The notes under the pieces were generated by a model. It was not told where the DNA came from. It saw only the letters and a list, made by a program, of their open reading frames with translations, and searched no databases. 64,000 bases of DNA from Polycyclovorans algicola TG408 (GTDB lineage Bacteria > Pseudomonadota > Gammaproteobacteria > Nevskiales > Nevskiaceae), in assembly GCF_000711245.1 (NCBI RefSeq), contig NZ_JOMH01000001.1, positions 2,164,830-2,228,829 on the forward strand. Direction: 5' to 3'. Below, in pieces: positions 1 to 5,698 of the stretch (the first letter of the stretch is position 1; every line of letters starts with the position of its first letter). The position numbers were made by a program, and so were the translations under genes.

Positions 1-1654
1 CGGCGTAGAGCCCGGCGATGGCCTTGCCCTGGGCATCGAGCACCCGGCCGCTCGGGTCGACCACCGGGCCACCTTTGGTGTCGAGCGTGCCGGCGCCCAG
101 GATCACCGCGTGATAAGGCCCCTTGTCGGCGATGGGGTGCATCATCCGGTTCGGGTAAGGGTTCTCGGCGGGCGCCGCGTTCATGAACTGGAAGGCGGTT
201 TCAATGGCGGCTTCGCCACGTGAAAAATCCTCGTCCTTGCCGCTTTTCGCGAAGCCGTTGAAGCGGGCGATGGTGGCTTCAAGGTTCTTCAGAAAGGCGT
301 CGTCTAGGGTGAATCCGCCGGTCTTGGCGGCGATGCCGGCAAGCCTTTCCTTGAGCTGCGCGGTCAGCGCTGCCAGCGAATCGGCCGAGATGATCTGCGA
401 CAGGCGTGCATTGGCGGCGGGAATCGGGTCGTAGCCGGCATAGCGCTCGGCGGTGCGCCCATCCCAGATCATGAAGCCGAGCAGGTTGGGGTATTCGGCG
501 CGGACCGCGTCCCAGTAAAAGTGGGCCTGGGTGCGCTCGTTGTACTGAATCTTTTCATTGACGAAGCGCTTTCCGTAACGGTTCACCTGAATCACGCTGT
601 CACCCGGCGTGGACCATACGGTGGCGGCCGTGCTGGGCGTCTTGAGCGCCACCTCCACCGGAATCTGCCCCCACCAGGCGTGGCTCATGTTGCCCAGCGC
701 GGCGCCGGCTCGGGTGGCGATGGGAATGAAGTCACCGGTGCTGCCGGGTGCGGCGCAACCGCCCCAGATGCGGCCGCGAAGATAGTCGCCCGCCAGCGCC
801 GCGTTGTGGGTGAAGCCGCCGCTGCCAAACACCACACCCTTGCGGGCGCGGAACCGGGCCGGGGTCTTGTCGCCGCGGTCGACGGTGAGGCCGATGATCT
901 TGCCTTGGTCGTCGCGGACCAGGTCCAGCACCTTATGGTCCAGCAGGATCTGCGCGGGTTTGTCTTTCAGGCCGTCGCTCATCAATTGCACCAGCCGGGG
1001 GCCAGCGCCGCCCTTTTTGGGCCAGACCACCGAGTCCGGATCATCGCTGCTGTCGGGCACCAGTGAGCGACCGCGATGCACCGTGTTCTCGGCGATATCG
1101 GCGTAGTAGTCGGGGTAGTCCTTCTCTTCCCAGGTGGCCCAGGGGATCGCCTTGAGGCCGCACTGGGTCTCAAGCGCCGTCACCACGCGCGCGCCGTGGT
1201 CATAGAAGGTGGCGATCAGATCGAACTCGGCCTGGGTCAGCCCCAGTCGCGCATCGCCTGCGGCATAGCGGGTCGGGTGGGCCAGACGGGCCATGTAGCG
1301 CAGCGCGTCGGGGCGTTCGTCCTTGACGCCCTTGGCCTGCAGGCCGGGGTTGTTGGGTATCCAGAACACGCCGCCAGACTTGACCGTGGTGCCGCCCTGA
1401 AACGGCATCTTGTCGAACAGGATGACGCTGGCGCCCTTGCCGACGGCGGCCAGCGCCGCCGAAAGTCCGGCGGCGCCGGTGCCCACGATCAGCACTTCGG
1501 CCTCGCCGTCCCAATGCATGTCGGCAGCGGCGTGGGCGGTGCCCATCGGCATCAGCGGTACGGCGGTTGCTGCGGCAAAGCCCTTCAGCAGATTGCGGCG
1601 CGCGAGTAACTGCGCGCTGCCGGCTTGCGGTTTATCCGATTGACCTTGGCTCAC
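1..1654 (-). CDS. Tat-type FAD-dependent oxidoreductase (KstD/fumarate reductase flavoprotein family), 3' end cut by window
   Basis: About 551 codons are visible on the minus strand and the C-terminus lies outside the window. The chosen start is GTG at 1654, behind a GGGGGAG ribosome-binding site. Residues about 19-45 form a twin-arginine type leader (RRNLLKGF then a hydrophobic stretch ending AHA), suggesting export of a folded flavoprotein. A dinucleotide-binding motif (VLIVGTGAAGLSAAL) follows at once, as in the FAD_binding_2 family of fumarate reductases, 3-ketosteroid dehydrogenases and related desaturases. The substrate cannot be read from sequence. It is the last visible gene of the left-pointing operon, 34 bases after the Rieske alpha subunit, so a dehydrogenation or reduction of a ring intermediate is a reasonable inference. 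It could equally be a periplasmic reductase. Confidence 0.8.
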   Translation of the reverse strand, partial: MSQGQSDKPQAGSAQLLARRNLLKGFAAATAVPLMPMGTAHAAADMHWDGEAEVLIVGTGAAGLSAALAAVGKGASVILFDKMPFQGGTTVKSGGVFWIPNNPGLQAKGVKDERPDALRYMARLAHPTRYAAGDARLGLTQAEFDLIATFYDHGARVVTALETQCGLKAIPWATWEEKDYPDYYADIAENTVHRGRSLVPDSSDDPDSVVWPKKGGAGPRLVQLMSDGLKDKPAQILLDHKVLDLVRDDQGKIIGLTVDRGDKTPARFRARKGVVFGSGGFTHNAALAGDYLRGRIWGGCAAPGSTGDFIPIATRAGAALGNMSHAWWGQIPVEVALKTPSTAATVWSTPGDSVIQVNRYGKRFVNEKIQYNERTQAHFYWDAVRAEYPNLLGFMIWDGRTAERYAGYDPIPAANARLSQIISADSLAALTAQLKERLAGIAAKTGGFTLDDAFLKNLEATIARFNGFAKSGKDEDFSRGEAAIETAFQFMNAAPAENPYPNRMMHPIADKGPYHAVILGAGTLDTKGGPVVDPSGRVLDAQGKAIAGLYA

Positions 1655-1688
1655 GGTGTTCTCCCCCGGTAGTGGCACGGTTTCATTG

Positions 1689-2969
1689 TTATTTCAGCGC
1701 GTCGGCGACCCGGTCGGCCTTCACCCAGTTGTCGAGCACGTGCAGGTTGTGGCGAATGAGCATTTCAGCGTCCTGCAGGTGCATCACGTCTTTGGCGCCC
1801 GACTCCAGTCCGCGCTGGATCCGTTCACAGTTGGTCACATCTTCGAGCACGACTTCGGCCCAGCGACAGGCGTAGTGCTCAAGCTGCAGGCGATGACGCA
1901 CCGATGCGGTTTTTGGAATGTAGATCCGCTGGGTCCACTTGGTGCGGTTGTAGGCCACCGGCCAGAACTCGTGGGTCCAGAAGCCACCGGTGGAGTAATC
2001 GATGTTGAAGTTGGGGAAAATCCAGGTGACGTCAGCTGACCAGTTGGGGTCCTTGGTCGGATTGATGGCCGGGTGCGACCACAGCGCGGCGGCATTGCCC
2101 TGGGCATCGCCGCCAAGTACGCCACCGGTGTCCTGGATGTACACCATCCGCTCGACTTTCGACTCTGGCGCGGGCACGTACTGCGGATTGCCATAGGCCG
2201 AAAAATGCCGGTGAATGCCGTGCGCCATCGCGCTCAGCGGCCGGGCGTACTTGTTGTCTTCAGGGTGGGCAAAACCCGGCGCCAGCGTGCCGGGGTGCAG
2301 CGAGGGCACGTGGTAAGGCTCGGCGAAGGCGTCGCAGATGAGTTTCCAGTTGGCCTGGAAATCGGCCTCAATGACGATGGTTTCATCGAGATTGAAGTAC
2401 GGGATGCCGGCGTACTTGGTGCCGAACGGCCCGAGAAACTCGGCAAGGCTGACTTCAGGTGTGGGCTGCAGGTTGATGAAAATGAAGCCTTCCCACACCT
2501 CGCAGGCGATGGGCGTCAGGCCGCAGGTCTTCTTGTCGACGTCAAAGAAATGTTTCTGGTCGGGAATGCCCATCAGCGAGCCGTCGCTCGAATAAGACCA
2601 GTTGTGATACTTGCAGACAAAGCGCTCGGCCTTGCCGCAGGCTTGGTTCACCACCAGGTTGCCGCGATGGCTGCACACGTTGTGAAAGGCCCGGATGCGT
2701 TCACCCTTGCCACGCGTCACCAGCACCGAGGCCTTGCAGACATCCAGATCCTTGATGAAGTAGCTGTGGGTCTCGGGCAACGCTTCGACCCTGCCTGCGT
2801 ACAGCCAGGCGCGACGAAACACGCGCTCGCGCTCGAGCTCGAAATACGCGGGTGAGCGGTACGGCTCCACCGACACCGGCCCGGTGCCGAGGTTGGCCGC
2901 CAGGGTGAAGCTGTGCTCGGGCGCCTTGAATCGCGGTGCGGCAGTTTTTTCGTCAAGAACGGCGCTCAT
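1689..2969 (-). CDS. Rieske non-heme iron aromatic ring-hydroxylating oxygenase, alpha subunit
   Basis: This 426-residue protein has the two-domain layout of ring-hydroxylating dioxygenase large subunits. The Rieske [2Fe-2S] ligands are Cys99, His101, Cys119 and His122. The C-terminal catalytic domain carries the mononuclear iron motif ending in His220 and His225 (DAFAEPYHVPSLHP). The length matches alpha subunits of the biphenyl/anthranilate class rather than the shorter VanA type found twice further right. No SnoaL-like beta subunit, ferredoxin or reductase lies next to it; a 122-residue protein occupies the usual small-subunit position upstream. It probably adds oxygen to an aromatic ring or carboxylate upstream of the catechol pathway, but the substrate is not readable. 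Its operon is under the first LysR control region. Confidence 0.9.
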   Translation of the reverse strand: MSAVLDEKTAAPRFKAPEHSFTLAANLGTGPVSVEPYRSPAYFELERERVFRRAWLYAGRVEALPETHSYFIKDLDVCKASVLVTRGKGERIRAFHNVCSHRGNLVVNQACGKAERFVCKYHNWSYSSDGSLMGIPDQKHFFDVDKKTCGLTPIACEVWEGFIFINLQPTPEVSLAEFLGPFGTKYAGIPYFNLDETIVIEADFQANWKLICDAFAEPYHVPSLHPGTLAPGFAHPEDNKYARPLSAMAHGIHRHFSAYGNPQYVPAPESKVERMVYIQDTGGVLGGDAQGNAAALWSHPAINPTKDPNWSADVTWIFPNFNIDYSTGGFWTHEFWPVAYNRTKWTQRIYIPKTASVRHRLQLEHYACRWAEVVLEDVTNCERIQRGLESGAKDVMHLQDAEMLIRHNLHVLDNWVKADRVADALK

Positions 2970-2981
2970 GATTGTCTCTCC

Positions 2982-3350
2982 TCAGAGTGTTCCGCCATGC
3001 GGCCAGGGCCCGCGCGAAATGCGCACGGCGCTGGGCCAGTTGGAGTCGATGGCGCGCGGCGCGCCGTGCATCTCGACGGCAATCGCCGCGTGATTCATCG
3101 CCAGCAGCAGCTTGAACAGGCGCTCGGCCTCGGCCGGCATTTGTCCCAACTCAAATTGTTCGACATGGGCGATGGCGTCCTCTGCCCGCGCGACGATGGC
3201 GTCGTAGAAGGCCTGGATTTCGGGCATCTCGGCCTGCGAACGTGCTGCGCGCCGCGCATCATTGGTGTCCAGACACCAGTACGGAACGTAGGTCTCCAAG
3301 GGCTCGAAGCCCGCCGGCAGCGAGGTGCCGCTCGATTCGGCGGCGCTCAT
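2982..3350 (-). CDS. Small hypothetical protein between tautomerase and Rieske alpha subunit
   Basis: A 122-residue soluble protein with no signal peptide or membrane segment and no motif I recognise. The middle (residues about 40-90) looks largely helical, and the C-terminal third is rich in Pro, Gly and Trp (residues NWPSAVRISRGPWPHGG). Its start overlaps the stop of the tautomerase gene (ATGA), so it is translationally coupled, and it ends 12 bases before the Rieske oxygenase start. This is where a dioxygenase beta subunit is often coded, but it does not look like the SnoaL/NTF2 beta fold. It may be an accessory or structural partner of the oxygenase; that is inference from position only. 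Confidence 0.7.
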   Translation of the reverse strand: MSAAESSGTSLPAGFEPLETYVPYWCLDTNDARRAARSQAEMPEIQAFYDAIVARAEDAIAHVEQFELGQMPAEAERLFKLLLAMNHAAIAVEMHGAPRAIDSNWPSAVRISRGPWPHGGTL

Positions 3351-3589
3351 TCGTTGGCCCCCGCGAGGGCGGACGCGCCGTTTCGGCCACGGCGCTGTGC
3401 CAACGGTTGGTCGCCTGCCGTGGTGCCGGCCAGTGCGTAGTGCTCGGCCGCCAATTCGTGAATCATGATGCGGACTGACTGTGGGTCGGCGCCCAGCGAC
3501 TCGACGACCGCATCGGTCAGCGCCGCAACCAGTGCGCGCTTCTCGGCGGTACTGCGGCCTTCAAGCATGTTGACTTGAATGATGGGCAT
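3347..3589 (-). CDS. 4-oxalocrotonate tautomerase-like enzyme (first copy)
   Basis: An 80-residue member of the tautomerase superfamily. After removal of Met1 the protein starts with the catalytic Pro (MPIIQVNMLEGRS), and the Arg of the LEGRS segment matches the conserved arginine of 4-oxalocrotonate tautomerase. The family ketonises 2-hydroxymuconate to 2-oxo-3-hexenedioate in the meta-cleavage pathway. The C-terminal ~20 residues are longer and more polar than in the classical 62-residue enzyme. It is the first gene of the left-pointing operon, with a GAGGAGG ribosome-binding site. A second copy lies in the right-pointing operon at 10979, so this one may act on a different enol acid. Confidence 0.88.
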   Translation of the reverse strand: MPIIQVNMLEGRSTAEKRALVAALTDAVVESLGADPQSVRIMIHELAAEHYALAGTTAGDQPLAQRRGRNGASALAGANE

Positions 3590-3656: not shown

Positions 3657-3692
3657 TACTCTTGACGGATGGTTCGATACCCAACGAGTATC
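3650..3692 (+). promoter_or_regulatory. LysR-type operator region (copy 1)
   Basis: Two parts are visible. CGTCCAATACTCTTGA lies at 3650-3665. After ten bases comes an inverted repeat GATAC-N7-GTATC at 3676-3692, which fits the T-N11-A LysR box. The same two-part arrangement recurs at 5653-5698 in front of the second LysR gene, in the same orientation relative to that regulator and with 11 instead of 10 bases between the parts. The GATAC repeat sits about 55-70 bases upstream of the predicted start of the left operon, the usual position of a LysR recognition site. Confidence 0.7.
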
Positions 3693-3728
3693 AGGGTCGC
3701 CTCCGGTTTTCTTGCGGGTTGCCACTTT

Positions 3729-4706
3729 ATGGCTTTGAACGGGATTGAATTACGCCACCTGCGCTATTTCGTCGCAGTGGTCGAACAACGCACGTTTCGC
3801 GCGGCGGCGCTGCGGCTGCACGTCTCGCAGCCGCCGCTGACGCGGCAGATTCAGCAGCTCGAAGAGGCCCTGGGGGTGCGTCTGCTTGAGCGCAGCGCAC
3901 GCGGTGCCGAGCCCACTGAAGCCGGGCAGGTGTTTTATGCCGAAGCCTGCAACCTGCTGAGTCTTGCCGAGCAGGCGGCCGACCGAACGCGGCTGGCGGG
4001 CATGGGCGGATTGGGTCGTCTCGACATCGGTGTGTTCGGGTCTGCGGTGCTGGGTCCCATCCCGAAAATCGTGCACCGCTTTCGGCAGTCGCACCCGCAG
4101 GTGGAGCTGGTGCTGCACAGCATGGATCGCCTGGATCAGATCAAGGCGCTGCGCGAACGGCGCATCGCCGTGGGCTTCAATCGCTTTTTTGCCGAGGAGC
4201 CGGACCTGCAGTGGGAGGTCATTCTCAACGAGCAGATGGTGGTGGTGGTGCCCGAGCAGCACAGGCTGGCGAGTCGAAAGGTGCTGAGTCTTGCCGAGAT
4301 CGGCCGCGAGCCGCTGATCCTTTATCCGCGGACCCCGCGGCCCGGCTTCATCGACCGGATGATGCGGCTGTTTCACCAGCGCAAGATCACGCCCAACGTC
4401 AGCCAGGAAGTCGACGACATGGTCACTGCAGTGGGTCTGGTGGCCAGCGGCATGGGGCTGAGTCTGGTCAGCGATTCCGGTCGCAACCTGCAGGTGCCAG
4501 GCACCGTGCAGATTCCGCTGCGTGCCGAAGACAGGGCCTCGGCCGAGTTGTGCATCATCTTTCGGCGCGATGACCGCTCACCGCTGCTCGCCGAGTTTCT
4601 CAAGGAAGCCCGCGCCGAGAGCGCTGTCCAAGCCTTGGCGCCCGCCCCGGGCAAGCGGGGTGGGGGAGCACGCCGTTCGAAGCCGGCGCGACCCCGGGCT
4701 CAGTGA
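3729..4706 (+). CDS. LysR-family transcriptional regulator (copy 1)
   Basis: A 325-residue LysR-type regulator. The N-terminal winged helix-turn-helix covers about residues 5-65 (LRHLRYFVAVVEQRTFRAAA, then LHVSQPPLTRQIQQLEEALG), followed by a linker helix and a periplasmic-binding-protein-like effector domain. Family members of this type (CatR/BenM/CbnR group) bind aromatic or muconate intermediates and activate divergent catabolic operons. I chose ATG 3729 rather than an in-frame ATG at 3669, because the earlier start would place the operator inside the gene. It is divergent from the tautomerase-Rieske operon and convergent with a close paralog at 4700-5617; the two stops overlap by 7 bases. 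Confidence 0.93.
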   Translation: MALNGIELRHLRYFVAVVEQRTFRAAALRLHVSQPPLTRQIQQLEEALGVRLLERSARGAEPTEAGQVFYAEACNLLSLAEQAADRTRLAGMGGLGRLDIGVFGSAVLGPIPKIVHRFRQSHPQVELVLHSMDRLDQIKALRERRIAVGFNRFFAEEPDLQWEVILNEQMVVVVPEQHRLASRKVLSLAEIGREPLILYPRTPRPGFIDRMMRLFHQRKITPNVSQEVDDMVTAVGLVASGMGLSLVSDSGRNLQVPGTVQIPLRAEDRASAELCIIFRRDDRSPLLAEFLKEARAESAVQALAPAPGKRGGGARRSKPARPRAQ

Positions 4707-5617
4707 GGGGGTTGCAGCGCCTTGCGCATCGCTCTAACGGTGTCGACAAAGGCCTTGAGCAGGGCTGAGTGGTCATCAACGCGGTAGATCATGCACAGGT
4801 CGAAGTGGTCAGCCTCGACGGCGTGCAGCGGCCGGTAGACCAGACCCGGCAGTCGCAGGTTGCACGCCGAATCGGTCACCAGGCTCAGGCCCATGCCGCT
4901 GGAAACCAGGGCCACCGCGGTGACCACATCGTCGACCTCCTGGATCATCCGTGGCGTCAACTGCTGTTGCTGAAACAGCCGCAGGGCCTGGTCGATAAAG
5001 CTCGGTCGCGGGTGGCGCGGATACAGGATCAGGGGCTCGCCGGCAATGTCTTTCAGCCGCAAGCGGTCGCGTGACGCCAGCGGGTGGGCCGCCGGCAGGG
5101 CGATGTTGAGTCGCTCGGGGTGGACCACTTCCCAGTGCAGGTCGGGCTCGATGTCGAAGAAGCGGTTGAAGCCAACGGTGAGCCGGCGCTCGCGCAAGGC
5201 GCGAATCTGGCCGGCGCGGTCAAGGTTGTGCAGCACCACGTCCACTTTGGGGTGCTGTTGCCGGAATGCCTGAATCACCTGCGGAATGGCGCCGAACATC
5301 GCCGAGCCGAACACGCCGACGTCGAGTTGCCCCAACTGGCCCTGGCCGGCCAACTGTGCCCGACGGGCGCCCTGTGCGATCAGCGCGAGCACGTTGCGTG
5401 CCTCCTCGAAAAACACCCGTCCGGCCACGGTGGTTTCGACGCCGCGCGGTTTGCGCAGCAACAGGGTGACGCCGAGGGCTTCTTCGAGCTGTTGCACCTG
5501 CCGGGTCAGCGGCGGCTGCGAGACATGCAGGTGCAGCGCTGCGGCGCGAAAGCTGCGCTGCTCAACCACGGCGACGAAATAGCGCAGATGCCGCAATTCG
5601 AGGGTCGAAAGGTTCAT
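4700..5617 (-). CDS. LysR-family transcriptional regulator (copy 2)
   Basis: A 305-residue LysR-type regulator clearly paralogous to the neighbour at 3729-4706. The DNA-binding region is nearly identical (LRHLRYFVAVVEQRSFRAAA; SQPPLTRQ then QQLEEALGV), and the effector domain shares long blocks such as EPLILYPRHPRPSFID and the VASSGMGLSLV-like segment. ATG 5617 is preferred over a longer frame beginning at 5686, because the longer start would cover the operator. The gene points away from the ferredoxin-headed meta-cleavage operon and probably activates it. The effector is unknown; a ring-cleavage intermediate is likely from family knowledge. Confidence 0.93.
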   Translation of the reverse strand: MNLSTLELRHLRYFVAVVEQRSFRAAALHLHVSQPPLTRQVQQLEEALGVTLLLRKPRGVETTVAGRVFFEEARNVLALIAQGARRAQLAGQGQLGQLDVGVFGSAMFGAIPQVIQAFRQQHPKVDVVLHNLDRAGQIRALRERRLTVGFNRFFDIEPDLHWEVVHPERLNIALPAAHPLASRDRLRLKDIAGEPLILYPRHPRPSFIDQALRLFQQQQLTPRMIQEVDDVVTAVALVSSGMGLSLVTDSACNLRLPGLVYRPLHAVEADHFDLCMIYRVDDHSALLKAFVDTVRAMRKALQPPH

Positions 5618-5652
5618 CAACTGATAATGCAGCGACGTGAAGTTGTTGACCA

Positions 5653-5698
5653 GTGATACGTACCCGGTATCACACGCAAGGCTCAAAAGTATTGGACG
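5653..5698 (-). promoter_or_regulatory. LysR-type operator region (copy 2)
   Basis: A perfect inverted repeat GTGATAC-N7-GTATCAC lies at 5653-5673, and TCAAAAGTATTGGACG at 5683-5698. Read on the minus strand, the latter is CGTCCAATACTTTTGA, matching the 3650-3665 element at 15 of 16 positions. For the rightward operon, TTGGAC at 5692-5697 would be the -35; the candidate -10 at 5715-5720 (CTACCT) is poor, consistent with an activator-dependent promoter. Confidence 0.7.

Follow-up and report, generated by a model that had tools for sequence, protein, structure and literature searches.

The 122-residue protein encoded next to a Rieske oxygenase α subunit in Polycyclovorans algicola TG408 probably belongs to the oxygenase as a dedicated subunit, which takes the role of the classical β subunit but has an unrelated four-helix fold. 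For the assembled enzyme, we infer that the α subunits presumably assemble into the usual three-membered ring, that each α would carry one small subunit, held through its helical body and a C-terminal tail folding onto α as a short strand, and that the small subunit would stabilize this ring and give the docking site of the electron donor its shape, as β does. A wider proposal, to which we give slightly less than even weight, is that α plus helical subunit (likely 3+3) forms a separate architectural class, represented in Pseudomonadota, Actinomycetota and Myxococcota, and that in this class β would have given way to an unrelated fold in both its stabilizing and its donor-docking roles.

Structurally characterized Rieske oxygenases are most commonly α3, α3β3, α3α′3 or α3α3 assemblies in the section of PMC12445004 used here. 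The α3β3 enzymes (naphthalene, biphenyl and cumene dioxygenase) resemble the present pair in having adjacent genes for a catalytic α and a small protein without conserved metal ligands, but the classical partner is a β subunit of the Ring_hydroxyl_B/SnoaL fold, whereas the present small protein does not match PF00866 and is modelled as entirely helical. The relevant part of PMC9361823 describes β in these enzymes as lacking a cofactor and an arginine at its stem as needed for reduction by the ferredoxin; a study cited there found the α subunit of toluene dioxygenase to be inactive without β. In NdmA/NdmB and phthalate dioxygenase (α3α′3 and α3α3) a second layer is likewise added to the α ring (PMC12445004, same section), but it consists of a Rieske α chain rather than an unrelated small helical protein. 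Searches of open-licence PMC papers gave no description of a helical partner, and α with a helical partner is best read as a Rieske oxygenase composition not listed so far.

The window, i.e. the whole stretch of DNA analysed, is 64,000 nucleotides long; the features of the operon are given in Table 1. On the minus strand the order is tautomerase, small protein, Rieske α and, at the left edge, the flavoprotein, the 3′ end of which lies outside the window (full span L111:9718-11508). The tautomerase and small genes overlap by 4 nt (ATGA, 3347-3350). The small and α genes do not overlap; 12 nt separate the stop codon of the former from the start of the latter. The small gene had been described as translationally coupled, which is a fair term because of this 12-nt spacing with GAGGAG across the stop codon. 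The order LysR regulator, tautomerase, small gene, α, flavoprotein was kept in seven of 15 larger related loci, and the flavoprotein was a conserved neighbour in eight of the 15 larger loci examined. Beyond the left edge of the window, past the flavoprotein, are genes for a diiron (phenol/toluene-type) monooxygenase and an XylR-type regulator; the setting is therefore aromatic breakdown. Two related LysR regulators in the window, at 3669-4706 (+) and 4700-5686 (-), converge and overlap by 7 nt.

Table 1. Features of the Rieske oxygenase operon and its immediate surroundings (window positions).
Feature	Position	Strand	Basis
Flavoprotein (FAD_binding_2), twin-arginine-like N-terminus; downstream, same direction	1..1678	(-)	PF00890
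Rieske oxygenase α subunit, 426 aa, with Rieske and mononuclear-iron ligands	1689..2969	(-)	PF00355, PF00848, Foldseek
GAGGAG, likely ribosome-binding site of α, across the stop codon of the small gene	2978..2983	(-)	Read from sequence
Small helical partner protein, 122 aa (proposed β-analogous subunit)	2982..3350	(-)	ORF; without Pfam/NCBIfam match; A1 alignment; AF2 model
4-Oxalocrotonate-tautomerase-family protein, 80 aa, first gene of the operon	3347..3589	(-)	PF01361, TIGR00013
LysR-type regulator, divergent from the operon	3669..4706	(+)	PF00126, PF03466; conserved in related loci

The α subunit matched PF00355 and PF00848 (the latter at 92.9 bits versus 24.9), and its iron ligands are complete, as had been claimed from the sequence. 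The four Rieske Cys/His residues (Cys-x-His/Cys-x2-His) were kept in 81 of 81 small-linked α subunits, as were the two histidines and the aspartate of the iron site (2-His-1-carboxylate); the bridging aspartate is Asp in 75, Asn in four and Glu in two. Foldseek matched the α subunit to Stc2, BphA1 and CntA, and its sequence and fold together are intermediate between those of CntA/Stc2 and those of the classical dioxygenases. The α3 enzymes of the CntA/GbcA/Stc2 type are nearest by α sequence (CntA, Stc2) and among the nearest by fold. They differ in that the window α falls far under the cut-off of GbcA, its best NCBIfam model (122.1 bits against 670), and has a linked partner gene, whereas no partner is known to us for the CntA/GbcA/Stc2-type enzymes. 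CntA and Stc2 are tabulated as α3 in the section of PMC12445004 cited above.

The small protein had been taken to be of an unrecognized family, and neither Pfam nor NCBIfam returned a match to it at E ≤ 1. None of 36 family members matched PF00866 at E ≤ 0.1, and Pfam and NCBIfam scans of these members returned single-member matches only (best E 0.0029). Searches of PDB sequences gave best E values of 0.074 and 0.076. Across 22 plasmid records, the gene product was annotated as `hypothetical protein' in 18 and was unannotated in four. A chance ORF was ruled out, because the homologues retain frame and pattern at 23-75% identity (36 members). The family was aligned with 36 members (A1) and with 41 (A3). 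Arginines R33 and R37 are invariant in 36 of 36 members of A1, in which Leu-Pro, Phe, Trp, Tyr, Leu, Val and Glu positions are nearly invariant. No Cys or His occurs among the invariant or nearly invariant columns of A1 and A3, so a ferredoxin or another metal or Fe-S carrier was ruled out. No relative was found in phage records or among eight pattern matches in viral contigs. Three of 398 genomes of a phylum sample matched, namely the genome of the window itself and two with partial matches (E 1e-4) within ORFs of about 700 aa, which were taken as chance. A natural α-small fusion was also rejected: long open frames proved to be out of frame with α, and the sole in-frame candidate (L027, G150:C17:24481-24663), in which a Rieske fragment continues the frame of the first half of the small protein, is a decayed copy.

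Homologues occurring mostly without the oxygenase would have spoken against the original prediction; the opposite was found. When 84,980 species genomes were scanned with the small-family alignment A2, 36 loci were obtained; they span Pseudomonadota, Actinomycetota and Myxococcota. A Rieske α adjoins the small gene in all 36, and seven hold a second pair. Thirteen genomes chosen for holding the small gene contain 49 copies, 47 of which have a listed α within 1500 nt on the same strand, mostly directly adjacent; about 1.1-1.2 kb separates the two genes in three of the α-linked copies. The α of one further copy is cut by a contig end, bringing the α-linked copies to 48 of 49, and the 49th (G150) is a decayed fragment. 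Among 22 plasmid records with the small gene, 13 have a full α beside it, one a split α, one an α remnant only and seven none; the seven without a full α beside the gene are hexachlorocyclohexane plasmids.

The converse was examined with searches by α. The window α was run against 85 genomes of the order (E ≤ 1e-40) in a search blind to the small protein, which returned 25 α subunits in 12 genomes, 16 of them in genomes already known for the small gene and nine in five new genomes. A small gene lies on the same strand for 25 of 25, the matched α and small stretches being no more than 154 nt apart. A distant family in seven genomes gave 55 α matches, with a small gene on the same strand in 30 of the 30 that were fetched. 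On plasmids, 20 records had an α match: all 15 near-full α subunits have the small gene, and the other five are shortened, lie on lindane-type plasmids and have it adjacent in no case (three fetched, two judged by coordinates). Both gene orders occur (26 pairs α-first, 15 small-first), and a 4-nt overlap in 20 of the 26 α-first pairs suggests that the small protein and α may be made in equal amounts.

The small protein and the classical β subunit exclude one another among the α subunits classified. The genome of the window holds 12 α subunits and ten PF00866 β subunits. Ten of the α subunits have a β within 630 nt, and the other two (2166548 and 854702) are precisely those that have a small gene. 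The nearest PF00866 gene to the window α is 480 kb away, in agreement with the earlier remark that no SnoaL-fold β is adjacent. In the 13 genomes, 154 of 250 α subunits were classified (including four from the genome of the window added from a separate search): 47 have the small gene only, 65 β only, 42 neither and none both. One small gene stands beside each α in the checked loci, as for classical β subunits. That the two were never found beside one α among these 154 suggests that the small protein occupies the niche of β. In a quick tree with long-branch warnings (111 of 133 rows distinct; α subunits with fewer than 330 matched residues left out), all 79 small-linked α subunits fell on one side of a branch with an SH-aLRT of 99, and none of 500 shuffles was as low. 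The small-linked clade included none of the `neither' rows (27 of the 30 fetched, out of 42) and none of the five β-linked rows. Trees of α and small protein correlated with r = 0.79 over 81 pairs (permutation maximum 0.11). This may reflect mostly shared ancestry, because co-divergence inside six genomes was only borderline (99, 94, 344, 150, 988 and 669 of 1999 permutations as high).

The small protein was modelled alone with AF2 (41 sequences; pLDDT 88.5). The model has helices at residues 16-25, 30-39, 42-63 and 73-95 and no strand, its tail is loose from about residue 100, and it does not show the SnoaL α+β cone fold. A Foldseek search of the PDB with this model gave no match at E ≤ 0.001, and the best VIA Z of 5.3 is within the chance range for helical bundles. 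The small-family profile did not match the ten β subunits of the genome of the window (hhalign probability of about 0.1%). The structure prediction of the complex that had been suggested as a check was performed on an artificial read-through chain: the small and α genes of the window share a frame with a single TGA between them, giving a chain of 553 residues. This single AF2 run on the cognate pair, judged from pLDDT and pTM, gave a pLDDT of 90.3 and a pTM of 0.89. The small part seems to be confidently placed, because pTM would have a ceiling of about 0.75-0.80 if it were unplaced, even with a perfect α. The pLDDT of the tail rose from 73 in the lone model to 91 for residues 101-110 and from 63 to 86 for residues 111-120, and a strand appeared at 109-113.

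Replacement of β fits the exclusion of β, the 4-nt overlaps with α and the predicted grip on α. The original prediction had left the choice between a new type of small subunit and an accessory protein, and linkage in both directions together with the exclusion of β supports it as either. The subunit reading is put no higher than probable because nearly identical traces would be expected from an assembly factor. In this main rival, which we consider rather unlikely, the small protein would be an assembly or maturation factor (loading iron or the cluster, or assisting folding) that binds α in passing and is absent from the finished enzyme. The strict linkage and the predicted docking fit a dedicated chaperone equally well, and the protein is small, helical and without conserved metal ligands. 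Against this, the lack of any α with both partners (0 of 154) suggests takeover of the place of β, and the overlaps in 20 of 26 α-first pairs suggest equal amounts, but each of these is compatible with a chaperone too. Rieske oxygenases that consist of α3 only exist; a partner is therefore not required in principle, which counts against the subunit reading, as do the seven hexachlorocyclohexane plasmids that have the small gene but lack a full α next to it.

It is improbable that the small protein serves the electron donor or the substrate as an adaptor or regulator that sits reversibly on a conventional α3 oxygenase. The invariant R33 and R37 parallel the classical β arginine needed for reduction (PMC9361823, in the part noted above), which is a lead only. 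Donor genes near the pairs vary, however, and no electron-donor gene lies beside α in the window operon. In a clustering of neighbours from 44 loci (rough gene caller; family labels from annotated members or sequence appearance), a PDR/VanB-type reductase was present in six loci. Separate ferredoxins were seen near other pairs. We give very little credence to the idea that the operon encodes its true β at another place, as a SnoaL-fold protein, the small protein being an addition. SnoaL_4 or SnoaL proteins are indeed found in the operon at L049, L050, L187, L191 and L192, and a SnoaL_2 gene (L111:8845-9288) lies 2.2 kb from the window α, just left of the window and beyond the flavoprotein gene. 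The latter is on the opposite strand and adjoins the diiron monooxygenase genes, and its relatives in L054 and L058 are also opposite to α. BLAST matches were obtained in only eight of 55 large loci, one of them not SnoaL by Pfam and two on the opposite strand. The 89 same-strand neighbouring ORFs at 32 of the 36 named loci included three SnoaL_2 and two SnoaL_4 proteins, and Ring_hydroxyl_B was absent from the matches listed for these ORFs (25 of 32 families). Least credible of all is the view that the small protein catalyses a pathway step of its own and is linked to α by location only. Pathway enzymes are often encoded nearby in such clusters (14 of the 44 clustered loci have an SDR), but the small protein stays with α in widely differing operons in which every other neighbour varies, and, the two arginines and aromatic residues aside, its conservation shows no catalytic-looking pattern.

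The degradation of many aromatic pollutants begins with Rieske oxygenases, which also serve as biocatalysts. If this clade needs the helical subunit, expression of its α subunits by themselves may have failed or given misleading results, and automatic annotation misses half of each enzyme. Two unrelated folds for one job, if the subunit reading is true, would show the real purpose of the second subunit.

Pairs also occur in other operons. On an Acinetobacter plasmid from pig manure (L049:4772-10753) the pair heads an indole-type operon and is followed by a SnoaL_4 protein, a styrene/indole monooxygenase, a flavin reductase, an SDR, a ferredoxin and a reductase. The SnoaL-type protein of this operon may be the cofactor-independent oxygenase IifA. 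In A. piscicola p38, genes 1684 (α), 1687 (styrene monooxygenase) and 1690 (ferredoxin) were raised on skatole, and 1684 also on indole, according to the part of PMC11434297 used here. We infer that the gene numbering given there fits the order in L049; the case concerns a distant family member. In Azospirillum and Paroceanicella plasmids (L187:5266-6911 and L192:5284-6854) two cupins and a SnoaL_4 protein come next after the pair, and ferredoxin and asparaginase-type genes lie at a greater distance. Ten of the 12 Ring_hydroxyl_A α subunits of the genome of the window lie within about 84 kb (G000:C1:800860-884008, L105-L109), nine with β and one with the small gene. Three genomes of about 3.1-3.2 Mb each (G209, G320 and G414) have 48 to 65 Ring_hydroxyl_A matches per genome. 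In hexachlorocyclohexane plasmids (L046, L189 and L197), one side of an IS6100 copy carries linC, an EthD protein and the small gene. The α of the same plasmids lacks its N-terminus, has its own SDR and EthD, and adjoins IS6100 elsewhere (in pISP4, on the other side of one IS6100). Judged from these arrangements, LinC may have descended from a pathway with such an oxygenase.
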